From: Nitrospirota bacterium
GTDB taxonomy: Bacteria; Nitrospirota; Nitrospiria; Nitrospirales; Nitrospiraceae
DNA: 50,753 nucleotides
Assembly (NCBI GenBank): GCA_030682135.1
Contig: JAUXQT010000050.1
Location: 1-50,753 of the forward strand
Direction of reading: 5' to 3'
The first letter of the stretch is position 1; every line of letters begins with the position of its first letter. Position numbers and translations under genes: made by a program. The notes under the pieces are model-generated. The model was not told where the DNA came from. It saw nothing but the letters and a program-made list of their open reading frames with translations, and searched no databases. Of this stretch, positions 144-40,400 are shown piece by piece.

Positions 144-1130
144 ATGTACCAAGTGGGAGTTAAAGGGGGCAACTGGTTGTTCGTCACCGACGGACTAGAG
201 ATCTACGGCGCTGAGGATGACGTTAGATATTCCTCAGGTCCTCAGCTACCTGATCCTGGTTATCGTCCGCGCACCAATCGAATCACTCGATTAGTGCTGA
301 CCCAGGCCGAGTTCGCCCGGCATTGCGCGTCTAATAACATCGAACTTAGAGGATGCATAAGAGTAAACGAGAAAGCTAAGCAAATATCTGGGCCTGCCGT
401 CGGCGGCGGCATCCTTGGCGCTTTATTCGGAGGCCCAGTCGGTGCTGTGCTTGGCGCGGGAGTCGCTGGATGGCTTTACTCCGGCTCTGATTTCACGGAT
501 GAAAACATTGCCAGTGTATTTAATCGCGCTAAAGCCAATCAAATCAAATGGAAGAATCATGACGAACAGAAAGCCAAAATAGAGCTGGAACAAATCGCCG
601 AGTATCAAAAGGTGTCCCAAGAAAGATGGCGCCGGTATCACAAGATCAGAAACGTCACATCAGTTGACGAATTGACCGGCATTGAGTTTGAAGCCGCCGT
701 TGCGAGTCTGTATGAAAGAACCGGGTACACGGTAATGTTGACAAAAGCATCTGGCGATTTTGGCGTCGACGTTTTAGCTAAGAAGGGCACCGAATTCCTA
801 GCCATACAAGTCAAACGGTATACGGGCAACGTCGGGGTGAGAGCAGTTCAGGAAGTTGCCTCAGGTGCTCATTACTATAAAGCGACGACCGCAGTCGTTA
901 TTACGAATTCGTTTTTTACGGAACAAGCAAGAAAGTTGGCGAAATCTCTTCCGGTGACGCTGATCAACAAAAAGCGCCTCGCCAACATGTGGGAGAGCAG
1001 CAGCACGACTACGTCAATTCCACCGTTTGATATCCAACAGTATGAAGCCATAAAGCCAGACATTGACAAGGAGCTACACCGTCTCGATGTTGCTGCGGGG
1101 AAGAAGTTCAGTAGGCGGTTCGTAAGGTGA
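144..1130 (+). CDS. Mrr-like restriction endonuclease domain protein with glycine-zipper segment
   Basis: A 328-residue protein. Residues about 84-115 form a glycine-rich hydrophobic stretch (GGGILGALFGG, GAVLGAGVAG) that looks like a glycine zipper or membrane hairpin. Residues about 175-290 look like an Mrr-type PD-(D/E)xK nuclease: GIEFEAAVASLYERTGY, then GDFGVDVLA and AIQVKRY, giving the D...QxK signature, then a VVITNSFFT segment. Such domains cleave DNA, often modified or foreign DNA. No clear ribosome binding site precedes the ATG. Base composition is more AT-rich than in the housekeeping genes, which fits acquisition. It lies next to an IS630 fragment and a DUF2971 gene, so a defence role is possible but inferred. 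The target and the purpose of the hydrophobic part are unknown. Confidence 0.75.
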   Translation: MYQVGVKGGNWLFVTDGLEIYGAEDDVRYSSGPQLPDPGYRPRTNRITRLVLTQAEFARHCASNNIELRGCIRVNEKAKQISGPAVGGGILGALFGGPVGAVLGAGVAGWLYSGSDFTDENIASVFNRAKANQIKWKNHDEQKAKIELEQIAEYQKVSQERWRRYHKIRNVTSVDELTGIEFEAAVASLYERTGYTVMLTKASGDFGVDVLAKKGTEFLAIQVKRYTGNVGVRAVQEVASGAHYYKATTAVVITNSFFTEQARKLAKSLPVTLINKKRLANMWESSSTTTSIPPFDIQQYEAIKPDIDKELHRLDVAAGKKFSRRFVR

Positions 1131-1184
1131 GGTCATGTCTAACACACGGTTCCATGGGACGATCACGGCCGGACCGTAAGGAAG

Positions 1185-2087
1185 GTGCCCATCACGAGAA
1201 AACTTCCTCGGAAACTCTATAAATACCGTTCTTTCGGTATCAACTCACTTCGCCTCTTGAGTAAGGGGGAGATCTACTATGCCAATCCCCGAAGCTTCAA
1301 CGATCCGCTTGACTGCGATCCAACGGTTCAGACTGACACAGACCGAGCTTCGATCGAGAATCTCTGCTTCCGAATGTTGGCTGCGGCACATGGCAATGAG
1401 GCAGCGCGGAAAATGATGGGAAGCAAGCGGAACAATTCTAGGCAGTACGGGGACTACAGGACCGACCCCAAAGTCGAGGAGGACTACAAGCGAGGACTCT
1501 GCTCTGAGATCAAACGGCTTGTTGATGCCGAAATGGAATCACGGGGGGTTCTGTCCCTGGCAGAGCGATGGGACTCTCCTCTTATGTGGAGTCACTATGC
1601 GGACGAACATCGCGGCCTTTGCATTGAGTACGACATGAACGACCACCAGTGCGCGCACATAAAGCCGGTTGACTATAGACGCACGCGAAGCATCAAAATT
1701 GCCGAATTGATGCAGTGGAAACTACACCAATCAGCTGAAGCGAAGCAGAGCGTTCTGGACACATACTTCTTCGCAAAGTCTTCGCAATGGGAGTATGAGA
1801 AAGAGTGGCGAGATATTCATCTGTCAAATGGCGTCAAGCCGGCACCCTTCGGAATCAGCGGCGTCTATTTCGGTCTTCGATGCGACGATGTTATTCGAAC
1901 CAGCATCGTCAAGTTGTTTGCCAACTTCGATTCGAGCATAGCGTTCTACGACCTCTATGCGTTAGAAGACAGCTTCCGTTTGAATCGACGGTCGGCTAAT
2001 ACTGACGAAATTGAAGCTTGTGGTGTGGAAACCTCACCGCTTCTGGGTTTCAAGGACCTCTCCCTCGATGAAAGCAAAGATACTTAA
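1185..2087 (+). CDS. DUF2971 family protein
   Basis: A 300-residue protein starting at GTG with an AAGGAAG purine tract immediately upstream. The N-terminus (KLYKYRS, then YYANPRSFNDPLDCDP) and the middle (PLMWSHYADEHRGLCIEYD) are the hallmark segments of DUF2971. The biochemical activity of this family is not established. Its members are common in accessory and phage-resistance neighbourhoods. The gene follows the Mrr-like gene by 54 bp on the same strand, so the two may be co-transcribed. Its TAA stop lies inside the left arm of an attC-like palindrome (2082-2153), the arrangement seen in integron gene cassettes. No integrase or second complete attC is visible. Confidence 0.75.
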   Translation: MPITRKLPRKLYKYRSFGINSLRLLSKGEIYYANPRSFNDPLDCDPTVQTDTDRASIENLCFRMLAAAHGNEAARKMMGSKRNNSRQYGDYRTDPKVEEDYKRGLCSEIKRLVDAEMESRGVLSLAERWDSPLMWSHYADEHRGLCIEYDMNDHQCAHIKPVDYRRTRSIKIAELMQWKLHQSAEAKQSVLDTYFFAKSSQWEYEKEWRDIHLSNGVKPAPFGISGVYFGLRCDDVIRTSIVKLFANFDSSIAFYDLYALEDSFRLNRRSANTDEIEACGVETSPLLGFKDLSLDESKDT

Positions 2088-2153: not shown

Positions 2154-2227
2154 AGTCTAAGTGAAAGTGTCGCGTTGGCCAGGGGTAAGGCGGCAGGAAC
2201 CGTTTTCTTGCGTAATGGCGCGGAACG

Positions 2228-2284
2228 TTAGGATTTCGGTGCTGGAGCGGTGGAGGATTTTTCGACGCGGATGGTGTTGGCCAG
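2228..2284 (-). pseudogene. Displaced 3'-end fragment (copy 3) of the 79-codon gene at 4811-5050
   Basis: On the minus strand this reads LANTIRVEKSSTAPAPKS followed by TAA, in the same frame and with the same stop as the C-terminus of the intact gene (WANTIRVEEVPTAAAPKS). It is the more diverged of two displaced copies; the other is at 3673-3750. Similarity stops 2-3 bp past the stop codon. No start or N-terminal part is present. Confidence 0.75.
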
Positions 2285-2940: not shown

Positions 2941-2989
2941 GTTGTAGTGATTGACAACATGGTCAGGTGTTGGCGTAGTTGCCAACATG
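2941..2989 (+). promoter_or_regulatory. Putative operator repeats upstream of the TumE/TumA-like TA pair
   Basis: TTGACAACATG (2951-2961) is repeated as TTGCCAACATG (2979-2989), with one mismatch. Each copy forms the right half of an inverted repeat: GTTGT (2941-2945) with ACAAC (2954-2958), and GTTGGC (2969-2974) with GCCAAC (2981-2986). The second repeat ends in the toxin start codon. Tandem palindromes at this place are typical of TA auto-repression sites. Binding by the antitoxin is inferred. Confidence 0.45.
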
Positions 2990-3283
2990 AAGGCTGTGGA
3001 GCTTTTCCGGCGGAGAATTGTGTGCTCGGGGCGTTCTTTCGCTGAGATGGTTCTCTGGCGAGTACCGAAACCTTTTGCCCGATCGAATCACGCGTTCAAG
3101 TATCGGCTCGCGTACGTCGTCGACGGCGAGTGTGTTTTGAGGTTCGACAATGAGGCAGGCAAGGGCGATCATCGGCATTTCGGCGGCACGGAAGGCCACG
3201 ACGCTTTCTCTACGCCTGAGAAACTGATCGCCGACTTTCAACGCGATATTGCGAGGTGGAATCATGAAAACGGTCACGCTTGA
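2987..3283 (+). CDS. TumE-like toxin (DUF6516 family)
   Basis: A 98-residue protein (from MKAVELF). It contains EMVLWRVPKPFARSNHAFKYRLAYVVDG, split here as EMVLWRVPKP and HAFKYRLAYVVDG, then VLRFDNEAGKGDHRHFGG near residue 65. These are the conserved blocks of DUF6516/TumE toxins of the TumE-TumA type II systems. Known relatives are small toxins paired with a DNA-binding antitoxin encoded downstream, and that order is present here. The ATG at 2987 is preferred over an upstream TTG at 2951 because the added residues do not look like the family and would read through the operator repeats. The gene overlaps its partner by 20 bp. The molecular target is not known to me. Confidence 0.75.
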   Translation: MKAVELFRRRIVCSGRSFAEMVLWRVPKPFARSNHAFKYRLAYVVDGECVLRFDNEAGKGDHRHFGGTEGHDAFSTPEKLIADFQRDIARWNHENGHA

Positions 3284-3611
3284 AGTACGCTCACCCGAAG
3301 AAGGCATGAGTGAATTTGTGGAGACTTGGAGGTCCGGGAAGGCCCAACGGTCGGCGCGTATTGGCTTCGCGACGCCGGAACTTCTTTGGAAGGTATTGTC
3401 GGCGAAACGATGGGAGCTTCTGAAGGTTCTTTGTGGTGCCGGGCCGGTCTCCATCCGCGAGGCGGCGCGGCGCGTTCAACGTGACGTGAAGGCCGTTCAC
3501 AGCGACGTAACGGCTTTGTTGTCTGCGGGCCTGCTAAACCGCACCACGACCGGTAACATTGAGTTTCCCTACGAAGCGATCAAGGTTGAATTCCTTCTCC
3601 ATGCTGCGTAG
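3264..3611 (+). CDS. TumA-like winged-helix antitoxin
   Basis: A 115-residue protein starting at ATG 3264, with GAGGTGG 6 bases upstream. The open frame extends to 3249 but the ribosome binding site supports the internal ATG. Residues 50-100 form a winged helix-turn-helix: LLKVLCGAGPVSIREAARRV, then VHSDVTALLSAGLLNR. This matches the antitoxin partner of DUF6516 toxins. It would neutralise the toxin and repress the operon, probably at the repeats at 2941-2989. The overlap with the toxin gene implies translational coupling. Confidence 0.75.
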   Translation: MKTVTLEVRSPEEGMSEFVETWRSGKAQRSARIGFATPELLWKVLSAKRWELLKVLCGAGPVSIREAARRVQRDVKAVHSDVTALLSAGLLNRTTTGNIEFPYEAIKVEFLLHAA

Positions 3612-3672
3612 CCCATCGGACATGCAGTCATAAGTTGGCAGAAGCCATTTTCTGGTGTCACGGCGAAGATCG

Positions 3673-3750
3673 TTAGGATTTCGGTGCTGCAGCAGTAGAA
3701 ACTTCTTCAACGCGAATGGTGTTGGCCCATTTGGCGACGATGGGGTCATC
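3673..3750 (-). pseudogene. Displaced 3'-end fragment (copy 2) of the 79-codon gene at 4811-5050
   Basis: The minus strand reads DDPIVAKWANTIRVEEV then STAAAPKS and TAA. The last 25 codons match the intact gene almost perfectly (RDPIVAEWANTIRVEEV, PTAAAPKS). DNA identity begins 2-3 bp before the stop and fades above position 3750. This copy and the intact gene bracket the two minus-strand TA loci at 3792-4712. This copy and the 2228 copy bracket PilZ and the TumE/TumA pair. Confidence 0.8.
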
Positions 3751-3791
3751 GTGAGATGGTCTTGTTGTCGGTTAGGCCTCCTCAAATGTTG

Positions 3792-4100
3792 CTAAATGGG
3801 CACTCTTCGACTTCGCCAGTATCCAGGTTTGCGATGACCATGCGCGATGGCCACAATCCAGACTTTGGTTCCCTGTAAGAAGTACACAATGACGTAGGGG
3901 AAGCGCCGAACTAGGATGCGTCGATGATGAGGCCCATGGTGGGGCCATCGCTCTGGCGAGTCTGCGATGCGACGGAGTGCTTGATCTATCTCTTGTTCGA
4001 ACCCTTGTCCAAGATGCTCGCCGCATTGGGCATACCAACCGAGTGCTTCAATATATTCTTTAGACGCTTTTGGGTGGAAAGCAAGGTCACCTCGTTCCAC
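3792..4100 (-). CDS. RelE/ParE-family toxin
   Basis: A 102-residue protein of typical size for the family. Recognisable parts are FHPKASKEYIEALGWYA near the N-terminus, ALRRIADSPERWP in the middle, and HHRRILVRRFPYVIVYF followed by VWIVAIAHGHRKPGYW at the C-terminus, the ParE/RelE fold signature. Its gene overlaps the end of the antitoxin gene by 14 bp, so the pair is translationally coupled with antitoxin first. ParE members poison gyrase and RelE members cut mRNA; the sequence alone does not decide between them. Confidence 0.85.
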   Translation of the reverse strand: MERGDLAFHPKASKEYIEALGWYAQCGEHLGQGFEQEIDQALRRIADSPERWPHHGPHHRRILVRRFPYVIVYFLQGTKVWIVAIAHGHRKPGYWRSRRVPI

Positions 4101-4326
4101 GGAGTCGCTCAGCGGCTAGTTTCTTTACTTCTGACCAAGGAACAGGCTTGACGGTCCCCTGTGTTATCTCATGGGTTCTGCGCGCAATCTCGTCGGCCCA
4201 TGCAGCTTCTGCGTCGGGGTCAGGTTCCCCCTCGATTCCGGCCAATAACTCATTGATGACCTGAATCTTCTCTTTCTCAGGAAGTTCCAGCGCAGCATCA
4301 AGGATTTTTTTGGTAGCCTGTTTCAT
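4087..4326 (-). CDS. Addiction-module antitoxin of the paired RelE/ParE toxin
   Basis: A 79-residue protein. The N-terminal helix (ILDAALELPEKEKIQVINELLAGIEG, residues 8-33, seen as ALELPEKEK and INELLAGIEG) and the following WADEIARRTHEI are typical of the short addiction-module antitoxins that accompany ParE/RelE toxins. The C-terminal part (VPWSEVKKLAAERL) would wrap the toxin. It is the first gene of the two-gene operon and overlaps the toxin start. No separate DNA-binding motif is obvious. Confidence 0.8.
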   Translation of the reverse strand: MKQATKKILDAALELPEKEKIQVINELLAGIEGEPDPDAEAAWADEIARRTHEITQGTVKPVPWSEVKKLAAERLRGTR

Positions 4327-4712: not shown

Positions 4713-4810
4713 GATCGGCTCCAGCTTTGGCAAGAGGGGCGCTACTTCTCGTGTTGGTATTGTCGCATGGCCGAGGAATGTCGTCTCGCCAGCTTGGTTG
4801 GAGAAGGACG

Positions 4811-5050
4811 TTAGGATTTCGGTGCTGCGGCAGTGGGAACTTCTTCAACGCGAATGGTGTTGGCCCACTCTGCGACGATGGGGTCTCGTTCTTCCATCGA
4901 CATTCCGGCATACTTCATAAACATTTGCGGGCCTTTACGGCGGCGCCAGGTGAGATAGGCGAGAAAATGATCCCGGCAGATGCTGTGGGTGCCGGCCGGG
5001 GCATAGACTCTGGTTTGGCAACCCTTAATTAGACAGGTCAGATCGTGCAT
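4811..5050 (-). CDS. Small conserved Cys/His protein, parent of two displaced 3'-end copies
   Basis: A 79-residue protein of unknown function. The N-terminal half has Cys and His residues spaced like a small zinc site: CLIKGCQ, then HSICRDHF. The C-terminal half has EERDPIVAEWANTIRVEEV and ends APKS. Its last 18-25 codons, including the stop, recur at 3673-3750 and 2228-2284. TA genes lie directly downstream of it on the same strand. I do not recognise a named family. Zinc binding is a suggestion from the residue pattern. Confidence 0.65.
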   Translation of the reverse strand: MHDLTCLIKGCQTRVYAPAGTHSICRDHFLAYLTWRRRKGPQMFMKYAGMSMEERDPIVAEWANTIRVEEVPTAAAPKS

Positions 5051-5066
5051 TCCATCCTCCGGTTCA

Positions 5067-5193
5067 GCAGGATGCTGAAAAAGCCCGCCAGCTTCGTTCT
5101 CGGCTCATCGAAATCCTCAACGTACCCCTCAGTGTGCGCCTCCGGTTTCGACTCGCCTGCGGCCTTGCTGGACGGCCTTTTTGAGCATCCTGC
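5067..5193 (+). repeat. Dispersed ~120-bp palindromic repeat, copy A
   Basis: The ends GCAGGATGCTGAAAAAG and CTTTTTGAGCATCCTGC are inverted copies of each other. The centre carries the shared core CTCAACGTACCCCT with a GTAC-containing palindrome, followed by TGCGGCCTTGCTGG. Six related copies lie in this window. It fills most of the gap between the 79-codon gene and the PhoD-type gene, which contains no other recognised feature. Confidence 0.85.
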
Positions 5194-5351: not shown

Positions 5352-6833
5352 ATGGCTATGATTGGCTCGCTGAAGATCCTCTCCATACTCTTGGCCACGC
5401 TCATTTCTCTTCCTAGCTGTGTGTCGGCATCACGTGAGGGGCTTCCCCCTGGGAGTCCCTTTGCCGAGACGGCTGCGACGAGTCTCCTGCCTCAGGGGAT
5501 TGCGGTGGGGGAGGTGACGAGCCGGTCAGCCTTGCTCTGGGTGCGGACCGACGGGCCGATGACGGTGCAATTCGAGTGGGCGCCGGTGGCGGCCTGGGAT
5601 CTTGCGTCGAAGATGGCGACCGCTATCGCTCCCGTGGCGCGTTCGCCGCTGTTCACGACTGGCCTCGAAACGGATTTCACTCTGGCGATTCCCATTGGTG
5701 GATTGATGCCGGCCACCAGGTATCGATTCTACGTCGTTGCCGGCCGCAAGGGGCGCGAGGGGACGCCGACGGAGGCCCGTGCGGCGCTACAAGGTGAATT
5801 TACGACGCTCCCCGATGCAAAGAGTCATGCGCCCGTGATCTTTGCCTGGAGTGGCGACTTGGGTGGGCAGGGGCTCTGTCGGCGGGGTGCTGCCGGTTAT
5901 CCCATCTTCGATCTGTTGCGGACGCAGCCGCTCGATTTCTTCGTATTTCTCGGCGATACGATTTACGGCGACGATCTCTGTCCCTCTCCTCCGAACGAAC
6001 CGGGCGCCGACTTTCGGGCGACGAACCTGGCCGAGTACCGTGCCCGTCATCGCGATCAACGGAGTGCGGAGGCGCTACGGCGGTTTCTCGCCAATGTCCC
6101 GGTCTCTGTCATCTGGGACGATCATGAAGTGAGGAACGACTTTGCCGGGCCCTTCGATAGCCAGATGCCGCCGGGGCGTCAGGCCTTGCGCGAGTATTGG
6201 CCGATCCCTGTTGCGCTTGAGGATACCCAACGACTGTATCGAACGGTGCGGGCCGGGGCGGATCTCGACCTCTTCATCCTCGACACGAGGCAGTATCGGA
6301 GTCGCAACGCCGATCAGGACGGTCCGGCGAAGACGATGCTGGGCGCGACTCAGCTCCAGTGGTTATTGAAGGGGCTGACCGAGTCGACGGCGACGTGGAA
6401 AGTGATTGTGTCCAGCGTGCCTCTTTCCATTCCGAAGGGCGGAGGCAGGGGCGCCTCGGGGTACGATGGCTGGGCCGGAGGGCCTGGCGGTCCAGGGTTT
6501 GAGCGGGAACGGCAGGTGATGGTGGATGCGATTCTCGGACAACAGATGAAGAACGTGGTGTTTCTGGCCGGTGATGTCCACTATGTGCAAGCGAATGCGT
6601 ACGATCCGAACGGGGACGGGATTCCAGACTTTCACGAGTTTGTGGCTGGCCCCCTGTCCGCCGCGCCAGGCCGGCAGACGCCGCCCAATAAAGAGTTACG
6701 TCCGACCACATTGATCAACGAAACCGGGTACATGAATTTCGGCCTCATTCGAGTCACCCAGTCCTCCTTCGACGTGACGGTCCTCGACGAGGCCGGGACC
6801 ACGCGGTTTTCCCACCATCTGGCGGCCAAGTAA
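5352..6833 (+). CDS. phoD: PhoD-type metallophosphatase, probable lipoprotein
   Basis: A 493-residue protein of the alkaline phosphatase D family, which hydrolyses phosphate mono- or diesters outside the cytoplasm. A hydrophobic signal with LISLPSC at residues 17-23 suggests a lipoprotein, although Pro before Ser is unusual in a lipobox. A fibronectin-like PhoD N-domain (AVGEVTSRSALLWVRTDGP) follows. The catalytic part shows metal-binding motifs: WSGDLGGQG (about 170), FLGDTIYGDD (about 200), WDDHEVRNDF (about 254) and LAGDVHYVQ (about 405). There is an in-frame ATG two codons later and neither has a strong ribosome binding site. It appears monocistronic. Release of phosphate from organic sources is the likely role. 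Confidence 0.88.
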   Translation: MAMIGSLKILSILLATLISLPSCVSASREGLPPGSPFAETAATSLLPQGIAVGEVTSRSALLWVRTDGPMTVQFEWAPVAAWDLASKMATAIAPVARSPLFTTGLETDFTLAIPIGGLMPATRYRFYVVAGRKGREGTPTEARAALQGEFTTLPDAKSHAPVIFAWSGDLGGQGLCRRGAAGYPIFDLLRTQPLDFFVFLGDTIYGDDLCPSPPNEPGADFRATNLAEYRARHRDQRSAEALRRFLANVPVSVIWDDHEVRNDFAGPFDSQMPPGRQALREYWPIPVALEDTQRLYRTVRAGADLDLFILDTRQYRSRNADQDGPAKTMLGATQLQWLLKGLTESTATWKVIVSSVPLSIPKGGGRGASGYDGWAGGPGGPGFERERQVMVDAILGQQMKNVVFLAGDVHYVQANAYDPNGDGIPDFHEFVAGPLSAAPGRQTPPNKELRPTTLINETGYMNFGLIRVTQSSFDVTVLDEAGTTRFSHHLAAK

Positions 6834-6931
6834 CCGCCGTCTCCTGCGAAAATCCTCTTGAAATCCGGACAGGTTGCCAGTTACGGTACATGTTCTCTTG
6901 CGTGCCCGTTTGAGGTCTGATGAGGTGATTG

Positions 6932-7180
6932 GTGCTGTTGCAGCTGATTTCTGTGCTAGGTGCCCTGATGGTGTTGTCGGCCTATGGTCTGATTCAGGGT
7001 GGGGTCTGGCGTGAGCTCGACGCGGGGTACCTGGCGTTGAACATCGTCGGGTCGCTGTTGCTGGGAATTGTCGCGATTGCGGATCAGCGGGTGGGATTCA
7101 TTTTCTTAGAGTTTGCGTGGGCCGGCCTTGGATTGGTCGGTGTCGTTAGAGCCGTCAAGGCCAGGCGTACTACGAATTAA
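6932..7180 (+). CDS. CBU_0592-like small membrane protein
   Basis: An 82-residue protein with three hydrophobic segments: LLQLISVLGALMVLSAYGL, YLALNIVGSLLLGIVAIA, and FIFLEFAWAGLGLVGVVRAV, then a basic tail. The pattern and the F-x-E-x-x-W segment match the CBU_0592 family of small membrane proteins of unknown function. GTG at 6932 is chosen because GAGG (6922-6925) stands 6 bases upstream; a TTG at 6929 is also possible. It precedes the gene at 7208 by 27 bp and may share its transcript. Confidence 0.65.
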   Translation: MLLQLISVLGALMVLSAYGLIQGGVWRELDAGYLALNIVGSLLLGIVAIADQRVGFIFLEFAWAGLGLVGVVRAVKARRTTN

Positions 7181-7207
7181 CATGGTTCGAATGAAAGGAC
7201 TATACAG

Positions 7208-7690
7208 ATGGCGGGATTGATGTCAGCGGATGAAATTTTCGAGAAGGCTCAAAATGCTGCGGCGGCGGCCACGAATCCTGATGAAAAGGCCATGCAGATC
7301 GATTACCCGGCGTTGAAAGAAAAAATTCGCGCTGCCTTGGGCGATCGCAAAGTGGCGCTCTGCCATATCAACAAGTTCTTACCTGAGGGCTACGAAGATC
7401 AGGGGCGATTCAACCTGTTGCTCCTGACTGCGGGCAATGTCGTCTTCGACATGGTCATCGGGGATTCGTACTTTCGCTACGATGTCGTGTCGGTCGGGCA
7501 GTTGGACAAGGTCCAGGTCATCGATGCGATGTGGGACAACAAGGAAAAGCGCAAGGAAGAGCCCTTCTTGAGCCTCCGACTGATGCATGCCGAAGAGGCC
7601 CACCTCTTGTTGGCGCTGGAAGATGACGAGCGGACGAGCCTCCTGGCCTTCGCGAAGGCTGTGTCGTCGGTTCGGAACCCCGAAAAGTAA
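7208..7690 (+). CDS. Conserved hypothetical protein
   Basis: A 160-residue soluble protein without a signal peptide. An alanine-rich, probably helical N-terminus (FEKAQNAAAAATNPDEKAMQ) is followed by a mixed alpha/beta part (VVFDMVIGDSYFRYDVVSVGQLDKVQVIDAMWDN, seen as VVFDMVIGDSYFRYDVV and LDKVQVIDAMW), which resembles a small beta-sheet sensor or PH-like fold. AAAGGA at 7194-7199 supports the start. I do not recognise the family. Its end is shared with a convergent ygfZ through the hairpin at 7697-7728. Confidence 0.6.
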   Translation: MAGLMSADEIFEKAQNAAAAATNPDEKAMQIDYPALKEKIRAALGDRKVALCHINKFLPEGYEDQGRFNLLLLTAGNVVFDMVIGDSYFRYDVVSVGQLDKVQVIDAMWDNKEKRKEEPFLSLRLMHAEEAHLLLALEDDERTSLLAFAKAVSSVRNPEK

Positions 7691-7696
7691 CGATTC

Positions 7697-7728
7697 GCAG
7701 GATAGCCGAGCTCGATTGGCTATCCTGC
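7697..7728. terminator. Hairpin between convergent genes
   Basis: GCAGGATAGCC (7697-7707) is the exact inverse of GGCTATCCTGC (7718-7728), an 11-bp stem with a 10-base loop. It lies between the converging stops of the genes at 7208 and 7733, so a bidirectional terminator role fits, although there is no long T-run. Confidence 0.55.
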
Positions 7729-7732
7729 GTAA

Positions 7733-8824
7733 TTACGCCTGGGGGGAGAAGGGGAGGGCCGTCACTGTCGCGTCCTGGCGAGTTCCTTCGATCTCAACAG
7801 CTAGCGTAGTGCCGGGGGCTGAAAAGTCCCGGAGCGGGAAGGCCAAGGCGATAGGGGCCTTGAGTCGTGGGGATTGTGTCGCACTGCTGATCCAGCCGAC
7901 TTCCCGGTCCCCGCTAAATAACTTGGCGCCCTTCGGGGGGATGCTCGAACCCTTCAAGACCAGTCCAACCAAGTGCCGTCTCACGTTGCCGTACGTATCC
8001 ATCCGCGCCACCACTTCTTGCCCAGGATAGCAGCCCTTATTTAAGCTGACCGCTTTCCCTTCCAGGTTCGCTTCCGGTGGAACGATTTCTTCGTTGAGGT
8101 CCGGTCCCGCCTTGGGCAGGCCTGCTTCGATGCGGAGGGCCTCACGGGCCTGGCCGCCGACGGCTTTGATGCCGTACGTCGCGCCCGCTTCCATGAGTCG
8201 CTCCCAGGCCGTGCTGAGGGCCTCAGCTGGCAGCAATACTTCGAGGTCTACCTCTCCAGTCTCTTCTGTCCGCAGGACGAACGAGGCCTGGCCGCCGATC
8301 TGGGCTGCGACGGCGCTGACCGGCTTGAGATCGCTCATCTCGATACCGAATGCTGCGCTGACGGTCGCGCAGGCCTTGGGTCCACTGACCAGCAAGAGTC
8401 CCCAGGATTCTGCGCAGTTCTCCATCTTCGCTTTGATGCCGTAGAGCAGAAACTTTCGGAGCGCTTGGATGGTGGCTTCGCCGACCTCACCGACATCTTC
8501 TATCCACAGACTGTCAGCCTGGACATAGACTCGAAAGTAGCCGAGCATCTTGCCCTTGTGGGTCAGGAAGCTCGAATAACGGCCCTGGCCTGGCTGGAGC
8601 GGAAGAATGTCGTTGCTGATGAGTCCCTGCAGCCATTTCACGCGGTCGTCGCCGGTGACGCGGATCTTGCCACGGTGCGAGAGATCGGAGAGCCCGACCG
8701 CCTGACGGACTGCCTGATATTCCTCGACCCATTTACCATAGTGAGCGGGCATGTCCCATCCGGCGACTTCCTCGAAGGTGGCGCCAAGTTTGGTGTGGAG
8801 ATCGTGGATGCGTGACTGTTTCAT
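7733..8824 (-). CDS. ygfZ: YgfZ/GcvT-like folate-binding protein for Fe-S cluster maintenance
   Basis: A 363-residue protein with the GcvT-like tetrahydrofolate fold. The YgfZ signature KGCYPGQE is present near residue 262, and the N-terminal half has LSHRGKIRVTGDDRVKWLQG and LTHKGKMLGYFRV. In YgfZ proteins the conserved Cys supports repair or assembly of iron-sulfur enzymes in a folate-dependent way. The KGC(Y)PGQE motif separates it from true glycine-cleavage T-proteins. It converges with the hypothetical gene at 7208. The receiver and TPR genes follow upstream on the same strand, but gaps of about 60-90 bp leave an operon uncertain. Confidence 0.85.
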   Translation of the reverse strand: MKQSRIHDLHTKLGATFEEVAGWDMPAHYGKWVEEYQAVRQAVGLSDLSHRGKIRVTGDDRVKWLQGLISNDILPLQPGQGRYSSFLTHKGKMLGYFRVYVQADSLWIEDVGEVGEATIQALRKFLLYGIKAKMENCAESWGLLLVSGPKACATVSAAFGIEMSDLKPVSAVAAQIGGQASFVLRTEETGEVDLEVLLPAEALSTAWERLMEAGATYGIKAVGGQAREALRIEAGLPKAGPDLNEEIVPPEANLEGKAVSLNKGCYPGQEVVARMDTYGNVRRHLVGLVLKGSSIPPKGAKLFSGDREVGWISSATQSPRLKAPIALAFPLRDFSAPGTTLAVEIEGTRQDATVTALPFSPQA

Positions 8825-8885
8825 AGTTCCTTTAGGCTAAGGGCACGAGGCCAGTGGCAAGGGGAAGGATCTTCTCATAGAACCT

Positions 8886-9317
8886 CTAGCCTCTCGCCTC
8901 TTGCCCCGAGCCATTGAGTACTTCTTCTACCAGATCTTTCAGCCGGGCGGAGAACTCATTGCGCGAGACAATCTTGGTCACGCCTAATGTTCTGGCCCGG
9001 TTGAACGTGTCGACTTCTTCATGATTGGCAAAAGCCAGGATGGGAATGGACTTCAAACTCGCGTCGGCTTTGAGCGTTTCCAGAGCTTGAAAGGCGTTCA
9101 AGGTCTCGTCATTCATGTTCAAGATGAAGGCGGACGGGGACATGGTCGACGTCTTATCGGCGATGTCCTGCTGCGTGCGAGCCCGCTCGATCTTGTAGCC
9201 CTTCGCCATCAAGGCGTCACGGACTTTCGTGTAAAAAAAGATGTCGGTGACACCGACGAGGATGGTCCTCTGGTCTTTCTGGTCTGTCTTGTCTGTCTGG
9301 TAAGAGTTCGTCGTCAT
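8886..9317 (-). CDS. Response-regulator-like protein with degenerate receiver domain
   Basis: A 143-residue protein with the CheY-like pattern: beta-1 TILVGVTDIFF, helix, SAFILNMNDETLNAF at the beta-3 position, SIPILAFANHEE at beta-4, and VTKIVSRNEF with the Lys region at beta-5. The acidic pair after beta-1 is not evident, and the usual phospho-acceptor Asp after beta-3 appears as Asn (ILNMND). It is therefore probably a pseudo-receiver used for protein contacts and not for phosphotransfer. The N-terminal YQTDKTDQKDQRT is encoded by a low-complexity repeat (9268-9303) whose inverse lies just upstream of the gene. Confidence 0.7.
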   Translation of the reverse strand: MTTNSYQTDKTDQKDQRTILVGVTDIFFYTKVRDALMAKGYKIERARTQQDIADKTSTMSPSAFILNMNDETLNAFQALETLKADASLKSIPILAFANHEEVDTFNRARTLGVTKIVSRNEFSARLKDLVEEVLNGSGQEARG

Positions 9318-32527: not shown

Positions 32528-32957
32528 TTGGAAGGGGTGTGCCTGAGCCAAATTCTGAACCAGTAGGGGCTCGATGGTCGCAGTTGTGGGCATGCCTCTG
32601 CGCGCTCAAAGAGACCGTGCTCACGAGACGAGGTGTCATCTATTATCCAGGAACCAAGCAGATCAGTGGATTGCCTGAGCTCACCAATATGCCGATAGGC
32701 TTGATCCACTAGCCAAATCATCATGAAGTGATAGCATTTCCCCCCTGAAGAGGGGTCGAGCTATTACTGGTTTTAGAGTACACTGCTAACTCTGGTTGAT
32801 ATCCACCGCAGGACTGAGCCTATGCTCTGGGTTGTTCCCTCCGAGAAAGGCACCCTGACATCAAAGCCGACTACGTGCTAACCAATCCAATTTATTCCAT
32901 CAAACAGTGGGACTGCGACACGGTTGCCTCCGATCCGTGGGCACTCTGGAGGAAGAA
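32528..32957 (+). other. Intergenic region before zorA
   Basis: About 430 bp between the inverted repeat and the zorA start. I see no convincing gene. A minus-strand frame of 82 codons here has no recognisable domain and overlaps the inverted repeat. The zorA promoter should lie here, but I could not find a convincing -35/-10 pair. Confidence 0.5.
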
Positions 32958-34946
32958 TTGATAATTCAACCACTCGTCACATTCCTGGAACAAGTACACC
33001 CGGCATTTAGTAATTTGACGGGCGTCCCATTCTACGTCTTCCTATTGGTGTTGGCGCTATCTGGTGTCTTTCTCGTCGGCTATTTAGTGCAGGGAATCCG
33101 TGTTGGGTGCCAGCTTTGGTTAGCGGTGAGGGGAATTCGCAAGCTCACTGCGGCTAAGAAGCCGGTTGATCCTAAGGAGATTGCCAAGCTCTTGAAGAAG
33201 GAGCCTTTCCGGCACCTCTGGGACGAGTATTCGGACACGCTACACTCTCTCCAGGGGGCTTCAAGTGGGACCGCCACGCTCGTTGAGGTTCGAGCTACCA
33301 TGCCGGCCGAGGTCTTCTTCACGCGAGATGTTCTCGTCGACAGCCGCATGTTCGATGATTTCGTACGACATTTGCCTGGCGTACTCACTGGTCTTGGTAT
33401 TATTGGAACTTTCGCTGGTCTTCTGGATGGCCTATCACAGTTTAATCCCTCGACAACGTCGACAGCGGTAGCGGGTCTCAAGCCCCTGCTCGATGGGGTT
33501 GCCCATGCGTTCATTGCCTCCGCCGCCGCTATCAGTTGCGCGATGATCGTATTGTTCATCGAGAAGCTGGTATTGGCGTTTTTCTATGGCATGGTCGAAC
33601 AACTCAATCAAGTCATCGATGCGTTGTACCGCACCGGGGCGGGTGAAGAGTATCTGGCGCGACTCACGCAGTCGGCTGAAAAGAGCGAGGCGCATGCTGC
33701 TCAGTTGAAGGAGGCGCTGGTCGAGGACCTCAAGACGATGATGACCAACTTGGTCGACCGCCAGATTGAGGCGCAGCAGCAGTCAACGCAAGCACTCGGC
33801 AACCAATTAGGCAATGCCATTCTTGAAGGACTACAGAAGCCTATGCAAGATATCGGCGAGGCTGTGAAGCGCGCTTCGGGCGAGCAGGGCAGCGCTGTTC
33901 ACGGGATGCTTGAAAGTGTGCTTACCGCCTTCATGGCCAGACTAGAAGACACATTTGGTGGGCAGATGCGGGGCATCAACGAAAGCATGGAGCGCTCAAT
34001 GGATGCGATGGCGAATGTTCAAGCCTCGCTGCAGAGATTGCTAGAGAATATAGGGAAAAGCACTGAGAGCGCTACATCGCAGATGAGCCAGACGCTGGAA
34101 GACGCGATGAAGCAAGCGGCAACCAACCAACAGGTGATGACTGACCAAATGCGGGAGTTCGTCCAGGAGTTTCGAAAGCTCGTGACTGACGAGCAGTCAA
34201 AGTCCAAACAAGTCATGGACGAGGCGATGTCGAACGTCTTGACCCAGTTGTCTACAGCAATGGAGCACCTGAAGCACGAGCGCAACATATCTGCTCAAGA
34301 GGAGTCCGACCGCCAAGAGCAAACAAAGATTCGTACGACAGAATTGGTAGGCGGCCTGTCTGGTCAGGTGGAGGCACTGGTCCGATCCATTGCTGAGCAG
34401 GTTGAGAAGACGCAACGCAATATCGACACTATCGGTGCGGTCTCAATCCGCGCCATCGACGGGATGAACCAAGGTGCGTTAACCATGGGCTCGGCAGCGC
34501 AGCGATTTGAGACCGCTGGCAGCGCTGTGAGTACTGTCTTTGAACGATCGAAGACGGTCGCGGACCAGCTCCAGTCAGCGGCGCTGGCGGTCAAGCAGGG
34601 CTTTGATCAATACGAAAATACTCGAAAGACGGTGGATAGTCACGTTAACACGCTCACAGCGCTTATCGAGAATGCAAAACGAGAGGCTGGTTTGACGAAG
34701 GAGATGCTTGGCGACATGGAGCGAATTGTCGAACAGCTGCGTGCAGCTGAGGCCCAAAGCCTGCAATACCTTGAACAGGTAAACGGGGCTCTGGTGAAAG
34801 CGTTCACGGACTTCGGGACCCAGATGCGCAATCAGGTCGCCAGCACCATCGCTCAGACAGACACCCACCTTGGCAATGGTGTGCTCAATCTTAAAGCTGT
34901 TGTGCAGGAGTTCGGCGATGCGATCTCGAGGATTCCACGTAATTAG
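32958..34946 (+). CDS. zorA: ZorA: MotA-like channel protein with long coiled-coil tail (Zorya type I)
   Basis: A 662-residue protein from TTG 32958, chosen because GGAGGAAGAA stands directly upstream. An open frame from GTG 32907 would read through this site. Three membrane helices are visible: GVPFYVFLLVLALSGVFLVGYL (about 22-47), VLTGLGIIGTFAGLLDGL (about 138-160) and HAFIASAAAISCAMIVLFIEK (about 182-212). The cytoplasmic remainder is a very long coiled coil rich in Gln, Glu, Lys and Ala. This is the ZorA design: a proton- or ion-driven motor of the MotA family whose tail reaches into the cytoplasm to signal phage invasion. It is the first gene of zorABCD. Confidence 0.92.
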   Translation: MIIQPLVTFLEQVHPAFSNLTGVPFYVFLLVLALSGVFLVGYLVQGIRVGCQLWLAVRGIRKLTAAKKPVDPKEIAKLLKKEPFRHLWDEYSDTLHSLQGASSGTATLVEVRATMPAEVFFTRDVLVDSRMFDDFVRHLPGVLTGLGIIGTFAGLLDGLSQFNPSTTSTAVAGLKPLLDGVAHAFIASAAAISCAMIVLFIEKLVLAFFYGMVEQLNQVIDALYRTGAGEEYLARLTQSAEKSEAHAAQLKEALVEDLKTMMTNLVDRQIEAQQQSTQALGNQLGNAILEGLQKPMQDIGEAVKRASGEQGSAVHGMLESVLTAFMARLEDTFGGQMRGINESMERSMDAMANVQASLQRLLENIGKSTESATSQMSQTLEDAMKQAATNQQVMTDQMREFVQEFRKLVTDEQSKSKQVMDEAMSNVLTQLSTAMEHLKHERNISAQEESDRQEQTKIRTTELVGGLSGQVEALVRSIAEQVEKTQRNIDTIGAVSIRAIDGMNQGALTMGSAAQRFETAGSAVSTVFERSKTVADQLQSAALAVKQGFDQYENTRKTVDSHVNTLTALIENAKREAGLTKEMLGDMERIVEQLRAAEAQSLQYLEQVNGALVKAFTDFGTQMRNQVASTIAQTDTHLGNGVLNLKAVVQEFGDAISRIPRN

Positions 34947-34952
34947 CAAATC

Positions 34953-35660
34953 ATGCTGAATCGCATCGTTCTCAAAAGGGGCGGGAAACAAGAGGGGGAA
35001 AGCCCATTTTGGATTTCCTTCTCTGACCTGATGTCGGCACTCATGATGCTGTTCCTAGTCGTTATGGCGGTGACTCTCATTGCAGTTACGAAAAACATCA
35101 CCTCTGAGGAGCAGCGAAAGATTCAGAGAGAGGTCGACATTAAGGAGCTGATGTCACGAATCAACGAAAAGTCTCGGATCTTTCAGGATGTCCGAGTCGA
35201 CGAAACCACGTATCGCATTAATCTCGGTGCGAAAGCTCATTTCGATAGTGGTAGCGCAGATATCCGACCAGACGATGCTCGGCTTCTGCGTAGTTACGTG
35301 CCTGTCTTGCTTGACGCGCAGAATTCAGAGCTCGGCCGCCGGTGGATTCGCCGCATTGTTGTTGAAGGATTCACCGACCAGGATGGGACGTACCTCTACA
35401 ACCTTGGCCTAAGCCTCAACCGAAGCCGACAGGTAGTTTGCGTGCTGTTCGCGCCACCGTTTACTGGGGAGACCCCGCTTGTGGACGCTCAGAAGCGCAA
35501 GATTCAAGACCTCTTTTTGGTGGGTGGCTACTCGTTTAATTCAATGAAGGCTTCGAAAGAGGAAAGTCGGCGCGTGGAATTCAAGGTCGACTTCTGGGCG
35601 CTTGACGAAGAGAAACCTGCCGCCTTTGATGTCTCCGAGAAGGAGTTCGGGAAATGTTGA
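34953..35660 (+). CDS. zorB: ZorB: MotB/OmpA-like partner of ZorA
   Basis: A 235-residue protein starting 6 bp after zorA. A single membrane helix (FSDLMSALMMLFLVVMAVTLI, about 23-43) contains Asp25, the position of the ion-carrying Asp of MotB and ZorB. A periplasmic OmpA-like domain follows: GAKAHFDSGSADIRPDDARLL, VEGFTDQDGTYLYNLGLSLNRSRQV (in part VEGFTDQDG and LSLNRSRQV). It should bind peptidoglycan and form the ZorAB motor, which senses envelope disturbance on phage entry. It overlaps zorC by 7 bp. Confidence 0.93.
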   Translation: MLNRIVLKRGGKQEGESPFWISFSDLMSALMMLFLVVMAVTLIAVTKNITSEEQRKIQREVDIKELMSRINEKSRIFQDVRVDETTYRINLGAKAHFDSGSADIRPDDARLLRSYVPVLLDAQNSELGRRWIRRIVVEGFTDQDGTYLYNLGLSLNRSRQVVCVLFAPPFTGETPLVDAQKRKIQDLFLVGGYSFNSMKASKEESRRVEFKVDFWALDEEKPAAFDVSEKEFGKC

Positions 35661-37402
35661 GCGACACGGACGCGATTCATTCTCTGGATCGTGCGCTGGC
35701 GGGTGCGTTGGCCGCTCTTTGCATTCCGACAACCGAGTTTGGCCGCCCTGCAATTGTCGAGAGGGCTGCGCAGCAGGCTGAAGCTGCTTTCCGTGGCGCA
35801 GCGACGGCTCGCCCGAGCAAAGAAGACGCATCTCAGGCAGTGCATGTTTTCATGCGTGGATTGCCTTTGAACCAACACCAGTGCCATTTAGTAGCTAGTG
35901 CACTGTGCGAGCCGTTTCGAGAGCAGCAAGGCGTTCGGGCGGTCGGGGACCGTCTCTTTGACGGGTTGCTCCAGCAGTACGAGGCCCAGGCGACAAGCGG
36001 CAAGCTGTGGAGGCTGACTTGGTATGGACTGCTCACGTCCTACTTCTCCTTTGATCCTGCCAAGGCCAGTAAGAACGAACGAGATGGGTGGAGTAAGTTG
36101 AGGGAAATGCTGAGGCGTACCTGGCCTGACATCGACCGAGAAAGTGGGTCCGGCCTTGCTCCAGACTGGATCAAGGTTATGCGAATGGAGTCCCAATTGC
36201 TGACCGATACAGCTGCCGATAAGTACTCAGCCGACTACCTTGACGGTCGCACTGAGGGAGTCACTCAACTGGTAGAAGATCTTGGAATTCATCAGTCTAG
36301 CTGGTTTTGGCATTCGTTGGTCTTGGGCGCCGTACATAGGTGCTGCAATTTCAAGGACGATGTCGAGTTTAAGACTCGAATCCCGCGGGTACTTGAACTG
36401 CTGAACGCGCGACCGGTGTTCCGGGACCAAGCACTTGAAATCATTCTCACGCGATATCACCAGTGCTCTTCTACCGAAGTCCATCAGCAACTGTGCGATT
36501 TCGTGGTAAGCAAGGATGTGTGGCGTAATCCAAAACTTAAAGCTGCCGGTTATGCGACCGCATGGAATCGAGTTCCAGAGCCTGTTTGGCAAATGGTGCT
36601 TGCCTGGGTCAACGAAGCCAACCTAAAGCTGTTTTTCGAGCTACTTGCCGGCCGTTCAGGTAGCGATTCAGGGCGCCTGGAATTTTGGAGCCGCTACCTT
36701 GGCCAAATTACATGGACGCGGCTTATTTTTGGTTCTGAGACCGTGGCTCTTGCGCGGAGCAACCCAGAAATTCGAAATCTTCTCGCGCAGGAAGAAGGGG
36801 CCTACGCCACGCTCACAAGCAACAAGGAGGTTGATGCCTTCATGATGCAAATCGGTGACTACATTGTCGTAGAGTTCAGCAAGAAGCCTAATGCCTGTAA
36901 CGTCTATAAAACATCGCTACTTCAATTTGACCGGCATGCCAACAGCTATCACGGGGGCACCGATGACCTTAAGTATGGCTATCATCCTGGAAGAGCAGCC
37001 GTTCACTTTCCCCATCCCCCAGGCTGGGAACCGGGAGCCGAAGCAAAGCTGAAGACCATTGGTATCTACCCAGACAAGAATTCCATAAAGTGTAAAGCAG
37101 CGGGCTCCTCCTCGTTGGCATCGATAAGCCGCGTGATACCCGCCCCTGTCAGCACGCACACCACCACTCCCGATGGCCTTGCCCGTGCCCCAAGGAATGC
37201 AATGTTCTCTATCGAGAATGTACTGAAACTTGTCAGTAATTATTCCGGAGCCCGCATAAATGACGAGAGAAGCACCAGTAGCTATAAGGGGCGTCTCTGG
37301 GTCGAAGACCCCCAGCAGAATGCCGCACTGGGCAAAGCATTGCAGCGGTGGTACTTCAAGTGGTCCAACACTCGAAACGCTTGGTATTTCCCCGAGGACT
37401 GA
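35654..37402 (+). CDS. zorC: ZorC: EH-signature protein (Zorya type I)
   Basis: A 582-residue soluble protein. AAGGAG at 35641-35646, inside zorB, supports the ATG at 35654. Little of it resembles common enzymes. The segment FMMQIGDYIVVEFSKKP, NACNVYKTS, FDRHANSYHG near residues 395-435 carries the Glu and His of the EH-signature domain that defines ZorC. In the known type I system ZorC binds DNA and acts with ZorD. The size and position between zorB and zorD agree. Its TGA overlaps the zorD ATG (TGATG), so the two are translationally coupled. Confidence 0.87.
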   Translation: MLSDTDAIHSLDRALAGALAALCIPTTEFGRPAIVERAAQQAEAAFRGAATARPSKEDASQAVHVFMRGLPLNQHQCHLVASALCEPFREQQGVRAVGDRLFDGLLQQYEAQATSGKLWRLTWYGLLTSYFSFDPAKASKNERDGWSKLREMLRRTWPDIDRESGSGLAPDWIKVMRMESQLLTDTAADKYSADYLDGRTEGVTQLVEDLGIHQSSWFWHSLVLGAVHRCCNFKDDVEFKTRIPRVLELLNARPVFRDQALEIILTRYHQCSSTEVHQQLCDFVVSKDVWRNPKLKAAGYATAWNRVPEPVWQMVLAWVNEANLKLFFELLAGRSGSDSGRLEFWSRYLGQITWTRLIFGSETVALARSNPEIRNLLAQEEGAYATLTSNKEVDAFMMQIGDYIVVEFSKKPNACNVYKTSLLQFDRHANSYHGGTDDLKYGYHPGRAAVHFPHPPGWEPGAEAKLKTIGIYPDKNSIKCKAAGSSSLASISRVIPAPVSTHTTTPDGLARAPRNAMFSIENVLKLVSNYSGARINDERSTSSYKGRLWVEDPQQNAALGKALQRWYFKWSNTRNAWYFPED

Positions 37403-40400
37403 TGGCCTGGACTGACCTCTTTAGACGGAAGGGCGAGGATAGCGCTGGTAAGCCCATGTTATCGACCGCTGCACAAGCTGGCGGTTTGCGTATCGCATTC
37501 GCAAATCCCCTGACGGCATCGACACCTGAAGCATTATTCGACGCAGCGAACGAAGCCCCAGTACAGGATGCATTCTTGGCGACGTACGCGGCGCAACTAG
37601 GGCAAGAGGGCCTTTGCCTAATCGACATCAACGGTGTGACGCTCCCTTGGCAGCAAGTGTATTCGCTAGCAAAGTTGCCTGAGCATGCCGGGGCCATCAA
37701 TGAGTTAGATCTGCCACCTGAGATGGCCCTGCAGCCGATCATTGACTGCAAAGGTATTCTGTCTGATCCAGACTTTGAGCTGCAGATTGTTGGCTGGGCG
37801 CAAGGCGATCAGAGCGTTGAAGTTCAAGGTTTAATTGGCGCATTCGCCGTGGTTGCCGGTGAGTCTGTACTGCTGCCAGAAGCGGCCTGGGCAACAGCGA
37901 ATGCCATTGCTGGGTTCAAGGCTCGATCAGGGGACGAGCGAACCCGGCACGCACATGAACTCGCGTGGGGCCATATCCGCCAGCTCGCAACCCACGCAGG
38001 CGCCTTCTACCAATCCCCTTATTTGCAGACCACGATTGTGCTGACGCCCCAGACGCTGCGATTGCCAATGACGAAAGAAGAAGTAGTTGGTGTGCGTGTT
38101 CTGACGGTCGCGCCGACGTTCGACGACGCACCAGAGGAATGGCTAAGCACATTCGATCGCTACGGCGACGTGCAAGATCATTACGACTTGACCCGTGGGG
38201 GCGGCCTAGTTCGTGTGGTGCTATCCGAGCCCGTGAAGCGGGTCCTACGAGTCGTCAAACGCGAAATGCCGGGCCGACGAGTTGCAGGTGCTCGCGCTGA
38301 GAGGTTCATGCACAATCCATGGGCCTATCTTGGGGATACGGCCCAGGAGGTTATCAATGAAGAGGATTTTCTCAATGATAAGGCCGCGGCCGGTGGATTG
38401 TCGGCCGCTTTCATCATCGTTCCCCGTTCAGACGGTGGTCGCATTGAGCGAGTCGACCTTATTGTCAGCGAGATGTTTGTCGATGGCAGTGGGCGTACTG
38501 AGATTAGGCATTTTCCCGATCCGTCCGAACTGAACACTTTCGTTGGGAAGCTCGAGCAGGCGCTTCGTGATGAACGGGAATGGTTCACCTGGGGCGAATA
38601 CGACCTAACGATTGACGGAGAGTCCACGAGGCAATTGGAGATAGCTAGGCAAATTCACTTTCTATGGAAGAGCCAGTCGGGAAAGCGAATTGAGTTCGAG
38701 GAAATATACGCCCTGGCGAACTACAGCGAACGCATTGAGGGCATTGGTGTTGCGAAGCCTATCTATGTGCCAGTATTTCAGAAGTCTTCAGACAGGGGTG
38801 AGGGCAATCCTATAGGGATACCGACCGACCTTGAGCCGGGAGTGGCGATCAAGATTGCTGGACACGAAGGACGAGTGCTCATTCCTCTGACGAGGATATG
38901 GGTCGCCGAATTTGAGCAGCAAGTTGAAGCCGCAGAGCGCGGAGACGCGGCATCCGTCAGGAACACGTCCTTACCAACTCCAGTCGAGACTGGGGAGGCA
39001 CGTGCATTGGTCGATGCGTTCAAGTCTATGTTGACTGCGCAAGAGACCGTCAAAACATCACAGCGAGCGAAGGGGACGAAGGAGAGGCCCAAACGGGAAG
39101 CGTTGCTGCTCAAGCTGAACTTTCATGGCGTGGATTATTTGGAAGCCCGCAAGGAATCGTTGAGTGTAGGTGAAGACCAGCAGCCAAAGTTGCCGAAGTG
39201 CTTGCGTCCTACCGTCGAGCTAAAGAAGCACCAGATTTTTGGCGTTGCTTGGTTTCAGCATCTTATATCTCTGGCCCCGTTTGACTGCCGCGGCGCTCTG
39301 CTGGCGGACGATATGGGACTAGGGAAGACGCTACAACTCCTATGTGTGCTTGCTCGCCACTATGAGGAAAATCCTGAGGCCTCGCCTTCTCTCATCCTTG
39401 CGCCTAAAAGCCTTTTGGATAATTGGCGCAAAGAGGTTGATCGCTTCTTCACACCAAGCTTTCCTGAAATACTCGTGCTCTACGATGGCGAGCTCATGAA
39501 GCGCAAGCAACCACTGGGGCTGATTGATGAGCAGCTTCAGACTCGAGGCGTTACAGAGTTGCTGCGTCCAGGTTGGTTAGGCAATGCAAAGGTGCTTATC
39601 ACAACATATGAAGTCTTGACGGGTTATGAGTTCTCACTCGCCAAACAACCGTTTAGTTTCATTATTTGCGATGAAGCGCAGCGCATTAAGACGCCAGGCA
39701 CCCGAGCCACCTTATCAGTAAAGGCACTACGTGCGGACTTCCGTGTTGCCTGCACGGGAACTCCTGTCGAAAACTCTCTTGCGGATCTCTGGTGCCTATT
39801 CGATTTAGTGCAACCGGGCCTCCTGGGCGGCCTCGAAGAGTTCGGACAAACCTACCGGCGCCCCATCGAAAGCAATACCCCTGAGCTGCAGGCTGCACTC
39901 GAAAAGCTCAAAGCAGCCATCACACCGCAGACCTTGCGTCGAACTAAGGCGGACATCGCCGAGGAGCTTCCTCGCAAACTGTTCGCGTATGCGGAAGCTA
40001 CGGAAGACGTATTGCAGTTCGTAGATCGTCTTGAAGCAGGCATGCGACTAGAGGTCGCTCTGTCGGATCATCAAGTCGCTCTTTATCGGGGAGGTCTCAG
40101 ACGCCTGCAAGATGCGAACGAAGAGCGAGACGGTCGCAAACGGGCTCGTCTGTCCTTTGACGCCTTCCACCTGATGAAGGCGGTCTGTGCAGAACCGTAT
40201 TGTATCCCTGGCCGAAAATTCTTGGTTGATGAGCGCGGGGTTCATGCGCATCTAATGAATTCCCGCAAGATGGCTTGGCTGTTGAAAACACTGGAAGGTA
40301 TTCGCGCTTCCGGCAAAGGTGACAAGGTCATCGTCTTCACTGAGTTGCGCGAGGTTCAGAATGCCTTGGCATACTTTCTCCGGCAGACCTTTGGACTGAA

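Follow-up and report, generated by a model that had tools for sequence, protein, structure and literature searches.

A Mrr-family nuclease gene beside a DUF2971 gene with a predicted ADP-ribosyltransferase-like fold: probably two stand-alone defence-type genes in a variable cargo site

A Mrr-type nuclease gene and a DUF2971 gene that lie 54 bp apart on one strand, next to an insertion sequence (IS), raise the question of whether the two form a defence unit, as an earlier note on this DNA had put forward as a candidate, or are neighbours with separate roles. The window analysed here (50,753 nucleotides) is the whole of contig C96 of a Nitrospirota genome of 3.75 Mb in 113 contigs. The layout described in that note is confirmed: ORF1 and ORF2 are both read from the + strand with a gap of 54 bp (1131–1184), and a repeated IS end abuts ORF1. 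The features to which we refer are the following.

1–139, − strand: end of a repeated insertion sequence, probably of IS630 type, with a transposase-like ORF that reads leftward off the contig
144–1130, + strand: ORF1, 328 aa, ATG start
390–485, + strand: glycine-rich hydrophobic stretch of ORF1 (residues ~83–114, from hydropathy), a probable membrane anchor or hairpin
666–989, + strand: Mrr_cat nuclease domain of ORF1 with D209, Q222 and K224 (residues 175–282; Pfam, alignment and structure model)
1185–2087, + strand: ORF2, 300 aa, GTG start; DUF2971 protein with a predicted ADP-ribosyltransferase-like fold (PF11185, PDC-S31, phrog_1762, model and structural rows)
1797–1805, + strand: E205-x-E207 of ORF2, a glutamate motif proposed as catalytic from its invariance, which opens a predicted strand (207–212)
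2951–3611, + strand: TumE and a HVO_A0114-type protein, a toxin–antitoxin-like pair
3792–4326, − strand: ParE and an addiction-module component, a toxin–antitoxin-like pair
32907–34946, + strand: ZorA
34953–35660, + strand: ZorB
35654–37402, + strand: ZorC
37348–41253, + strand: ZorD, with a Mrr nuclease domain of its own

We consider that ORF1 and ORF2 are two stand-alone defence-type genes that lie next to each other at a variable cargo site (a probability of about 0.62), with individual roles that we propose below.

ORF1 is identified from its sequence as a Mrr-family PD-(D/E)XK nuclease. Residues 175–282 match Pfam Mrr_cat (PF04471; E 1.6e-30, 106 bits against a gathering score of 21), the PADLOC ZorD1 model matches as well (E 6.5e-25), and comparison of the modelled nuclease domain with known structures gives AF1548 (Z 15.4), AspBHI (11.9) and MspJI (11.5). 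The D...QxK residues are catalytic in the Mrr_cat family, and the motif is intact in ORF1, as had been noted: it has D209, Q222 and K224, which 42, 41 and 42, respectively, of 44 aligned rows retain (distinct sequences, with ORF1 itself counted). Outside residues 175–282 there is no Pfam match at E ≤ 0.01, and the model of the N-terminal part is very poor. Within the glycine-rich stretch, Kyte–Doolittle analysis gives a single hydrophobic segment (residues 90–108), helices are predicted with low confidence at 85–94 and 99–112, and matches to other proteins are weak (e.g. pdsO, E 1.7e-6, 27.9 bits where the cutoff is 152.2). Judging from its hydropathy, this segment probably anchors ORF1 in the membrane. 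It had been described as an unusual glycine zipper; the glycine-rich hydrophobic stretch is real, but a hydrophobic segment ahead of the nuclease domain is found by hydropathy in 21 of 43 other nuclease homologues (11 of these 21 coming from one Bacillota family), so that proteins with Mrr_cat commonly have a membrane segment ahead of it. What is distinctive in ORF1 is the glycine-rich sequence together with a stretch of 65 initial residues for which no relative was detected. Among the matches listed from 394 other phylum genomes, in a search that scores just a few candidates per genome, none begins before residue 66; in 268 plasmid records no place covers 80 % of ORF1; peptide-pattern scans of viral contigs gave no full-length relative; and in 12 loci from genome contigs with ORF1 relatives the match is confined to the nuclease part. 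ORF1 would add to the Mrr nucleases that have a membrane segment, a group in which one can ask whether the enzymes act where DNA enters.

The part of this locus that seems most worth following is the ADP-ribosyltransferase-like fold predicted for DUF2971. ORF2 belongs to this family (PF11185; E 4.2e-9, 38.1 bits against a gathering score of 22), which is its only Pfam match at E ≤ 1, so that the DarT profile (PF14487) is not among its matches, and it aligns over nearly its full length with PADLOC PDC-S31 (1.5e-52) and phrog_1762 (5.5e-44). PDC families are presented, in excerpts of the two relevant reports, as so far uncharacterised candidates from ‘guilt by embedding’ (PMC10855318, PMC12482510). 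The literature searched gave no assigned function for DUF2971, PF11185 or PDC-S31 and no experimental test of the ORF1 or ORF2 protein, and DUF2971 is not named in a survey of viral NAD+/ADP-ribose systems (PMC9503650).

The AlphaFold2 model of ORF2 (pLDDT 91.1, pTM 0.86; 69 sequences in the alignment) suggests a resemblance to ADP-ribosyltransferases. When 484 Foldseek candidates were realigned structurally, Thermus DarT came out on top (7omv, 142 residues) with a Z of 6.6, which, being below 8, is under the level that proves a fold, and DarT1 was aligned over 152 residues (Z 5.5). Among the 50 rows listed, 15 align at least 100 residues to the model, and all 15 are ADP-ribosyltransferases. 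These rows represent eight proteins, namely pertussis toxin S1 (7 of the 15 rows), Thermus DarT, DarT1, a Salmonella effector (7dn9, presumably SopF), cholera toxin A, CteC (8hte, named ‘effector mutant’ only and taken as CteC from its residue range), pierisin-1 and PARP1. The shorter rows comprise helical pieces on residues 50–118 (up to Z 5.8) and, over shorter stretches, gelsolin, TSEN and MPN/Rpn11-type domains (Z 3.2–4.1); RES and other ADP-ribosyltransferase families do not appear in the list, an absence that excludes nothing. Residues 54–118 form three helices in the model, which we take as an insertion relative to DarT.

Residue conservation within DUF2971 may be read in the same direction. 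E205 and E207 are invariant in all 69 sequences of a first set (ORF2 and 68 viral proteins, picked from 85 by length and redundancy), and in a second set of 31 (ORF2 with 20 sequences from the phylum and 10 from plasmids), collected without the pattern named below, E207, R209, K198 and W202 are kept in 31/31 and E205 in 30/31. Since the viral loci were fetched by the pattern [LV]MW[SA]HYA, the invariance of M134, W135, H137, Y138 and A139 in the first set is partly built in; E205, E207, K198, W202 and R209 are unaffected by this pattern. Excerpts of published work give E152 as the characteristic ADP-ribosyltransferase glutamate of DarT1 and describe an E-x-E that carries a key glutamate in iota-like toxin (PMC11543638, PMC11281641). 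We infer from its conservation that E207 may be the catalytic glutamate of ORF2 and, by analogy, would be the counterpart of the glutamates in DarT1 and iota-like toxin.

An alternative is that DUF2971 has another fold and is no NAD+ enzyme, or that it serves mobile elements in counter-defence or as a sensor. At E ≤ 0.001, Foldseek found nothing in the PDB for the ORF2 model, and a profile search of the PDB was also empty; comparison of the DUF2971 profile with nine phylum DarTs was likewise negative (probability 0.1 of 100), a result to be read beside a control comparison (alignment A3) that was equally negative and a DarT alignment of those nine sequences only. In a viral structure library the single match with E ≤ 0.001 is an uncharacterised Dickeya phage protein (6.0e-4). 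Viral DUF2971 genes, moreover, often lie beside an integrase: at least 11 of 131 viral neighbour proteins are phage integrases, and 4–5 match methyltransferase models (both among the matches listed). Against this alternative stand the long structural alignments, each of them to an ADP-ribosyltransferase, and the invariance of E207, and we regard it as somewhat unlikely. We propose tentatively, at a little short of even odds, that DUF2971 represents a so far unrecognised family of DarT-like ADP-ribosyltransferases that work without an antitoxin in phage–host conflict, with E207 as the catalytic residue. If this holds true, a gene of predicted prophages, plasmids and defence islands would gain a testable function and one residue to remove.

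The distribution of DUF2971 bears on both its proposed lack of an antitoxin and its independence of particular partners. It was found in 91 plasmid records and 261 viral-contig stretches, as against 3 of 50,697 records of isolated phages, and given this rarity, predicted prophages may account for many of the viral copies. In none of 18 genomes (our own counted; draft contigs, some of them short) does the contig with DUF2971 carry a macrodomain, five of the 18 have no macrodomain at all, and NADAR was found in none of these 18 drafts, our own again included; PF14487 (DarT) has no match in our genome. A separate observation, made by eye, is that in one viral locus (L046, 3641–4600) the genes around DUF2971 read as morphogenesis genes of a phage or gene-transfer agent; its position resembles that of a moron. 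In 10 plasmid regions DUF2971 has unrelated neighbours, which include Shedu, type I restriction–modification (R-M), BglII R-M and an abortive-infection gene. The 30 phylum and plasmid loci together give 113 neighbour proteins; each Pfam family matches two of these at most, and the PADLOC models found (best 25 of 311 families) include type I methyltransferases, Shedu, GajA and pAgo, with ZorD/Mrr models matching 2 of the 113. Such neighbourhoods are the behaviour of stand-alone cargo genes.

The genomic site has a corresponding character. Window positions 5352–9317 find a match in 32 of 32 same-genus genomes (in G396 over a short repeat only), and in five of these regions that were compared, similarity ends at window 2190–2230 in four, while in the fifth the contig stops earlier. 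In three relatives (L203, L204 and L206) the shared block resumes ~0.8 kb further on, by eye with an EamA-like transporter first and cytochrome-c biogenesis genes after it; in our genome contig C68 has this block, preceded by 4.6 kb of other DNA. ORF2 was found in none of 13 other same-genus genomes. Beside it are PilZ, the TumE toxin gene with its HVO_A0114-type partner and the ParE/addiction-module pair, and the same contig has all four genes of a Zorya type I system (32907–41253, + strand). We read the ORF1–ORF2 site as a variable cargo site. Short repeats at 2192–2282, 3639–3752, 4805–4878 and 5066–5193 are common to intergenic places in our own and related genomes, and the type at 5066–5193 looks dispersed, a similar piece of L204 having ~40 places in our genome.

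To the left of ORF1, bases 1–140 are present identically at two more places of the genome (contigs C61 and C28), and the three copies have CTAG in common (its TA being 138–139 here) and differ beyond it. On contig C28 (locus L003, 1–1500) the same end stands directly behind a NACHT/AAA-type-like ORF (P-loop, by eye), which it apparently interrupts. We take the element to be IS630-type; the visible 36-aa transposase-like fragment has no Pfam match, and the first 3 kb of contig C38, which carries an IS630-type DDE_3 transposase, have no blastn match to the IS end. The element is incomplete here, because only the start of the divergent ORF is visible and the contig ends inside it. For IS630-family elements, TA is given as the insertion target that is duplicated on insertion in an excerpt of PMC2170065. 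Three bases separate the repeat end, CTAG included, from the ORF1 ATG, and an in-frame TAG (138–140) lies immediately ahead of that ATG; if the duplication of TA holds here, this TAG is older than the insertion, and the coding region of ORF1 has therefore probably not been truncated by the IS.

The insertion may nevertheless have cost ORF1 its promoter and ribosome-binding site, and on this ground both genes could be remnants, decayed or silent cargo. The closeness of the IS end to the ATG is consistent with such a loss, and upstream of ORF1 no sigma-70-type promoter-like site was found on the + strand and no clear ribosome-binding site was seen by eye. Both frames are open, however, the known or proposed active-site residues are conserved, the ORF1 coding region is probably intact if the TAG predates the insertion, and outward promoters can be supplied by IS elements; we hold decay to be unlikely.

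Whether the two genes belong together could be judged from other genomes. Of 395 phylum genomes, 18 (our own counted) have a DUF2971 relative, and in all 20 other phylum loci (17 genomes) each ORF of at least 60 aa was scanned against the ORF1-nuclease model. A Mrr-type gene was present in 3 of the 20 loci (3 of the 17 other genomes), 1.2–3.8 kb off and adjacent in none, and a PF04471 search of the 18 DUF2971 genomes returned the same three genes near DUF2971, plus ORF1 itself. In L074 the gene is 1.2 kb from DUF2971, on the opposite strand and behind fabD, with QxK absent by eye; in L075 it is 3.2 kb from a DUF2971 gene that by eye lies within a type I R-M locus; and in L079 the distance is 3.8 kb. 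None of these three nucleases matches the first 65 residues of ORF1. The ORF1-nuclease model found no Mrr-type gene in 82 viral loci, there was none in 10 plasmid loci, and DUF2971 was absent from 12 loci of close nuclease relatives. By eye, the DUF2971 gene of L075 (6155–12995) lies between hsdM- and hsdS-like genes, and nucleotidyltransferase-type toxin–antitoxin-like genes adjoin the same R-M locus.

Thus, neighbour co-occurrence across genomes, which the earlier note had itself named as the refuting check, was seen in 0/82 viral, 0/10 plasmid and 3/20 phylum loci, the last non-adjacent, and a Mrr-type gene is adjacent to DUF2971 in 0 of the 112 other loci; flanking DNA on both sides exceeds 1 kb in 67/82 viral and 16/20 phylum loci and 3 kb in 40/82 and 15/20, respectively, and there is some redundancy among the viral loci (e.g. 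L046/L047, L107–L112). As a conserved two-gene system, Mrr plus DUF2971 is rejected on this count. Chance alone would place roughly 0.02 Mrr-type genes in 20 windows, a rough figure built on round values (99 hits and 3.2 Mb per genome), and three in 20 therefore indicates a real clustering of Mrr-type genes near DUF2971, likely as members of shared defence islands. The defence reading survives as far as both genes match defence or candidate models in PADLOC, the nuclease motif is intact, and they lie in a variable stretch next to toxin–antitoxin genes, on a contig with Zorya type I; its extension to one unit is not supported. A true two-gene unit, in which an ADP-ribosyltransferase-like ORF2 would sense or mark DNA or the host state and a membrane nuclease, ORF1, would cut, draws on the common strand and 54 bp gap, the family matches of both genes and the three other phylum genomes (out of 17) in which a Mrr-type gene lies less than 5 kb from DUF2971, but the lack of adjacency at any of the 112 loci (some with short flanks, the viral ones partly redundant), the L074 nuclease behind fabD without a visible QxK and the three nearby nucleases that do not match the start of ORF1 make it highly improbable.

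Considering ORF1 and ORF2 as two stand-alone genes, we suggest that ORF1, as an enzyme of the Mrr/modification-dependent type, would most likely cut, close to the membrane, DNA that enters the cell or is abnormal, its anchoring, substrate and role all being proposed. In a phage infection, ORF2 would most likely use NAD+ to modify a protein or a nucleic acid (a putative activity, target and role), acting with no macrodomain or NADAR antitoxin detected beside it and with E207 as its catalytic glutamate. Adjacency and a common strand may give co-transcription of the two genes here, as no obligate pair.

Compared with known systems, ORF1 is like the Mrr/modification-dependent PD-(D/E)XK enzymes (MspJI, AspBHI and the C-terminal nuclease of ZorD) in its catalytic domain and D...QxK motif, and unlike them in having a glycine-rich hydrophobic segment and a relative-less start of 65 residues, with no DNA-recognition domain found. 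ZorD of the Zorya type I system on the same contig, ~31 kb away, shares a related Mrr nuclease domain with ORF1, which in contrast has no SNF2 helicase part. Within DUF2971, PDC-S31 and phrog_1762, ORF2 is an ordinary member with nothing notable about it. Unlike DarT of DarTG, it shows no profile similarity in the comparison with nine DarTs, carries the helices at 54–118 and has neither a macrodomain on its contig nor NADAR; with DarT it has in common the long structural rows (Z 6.6 and 5.5) and a conserved candidate catalytic glutamate.
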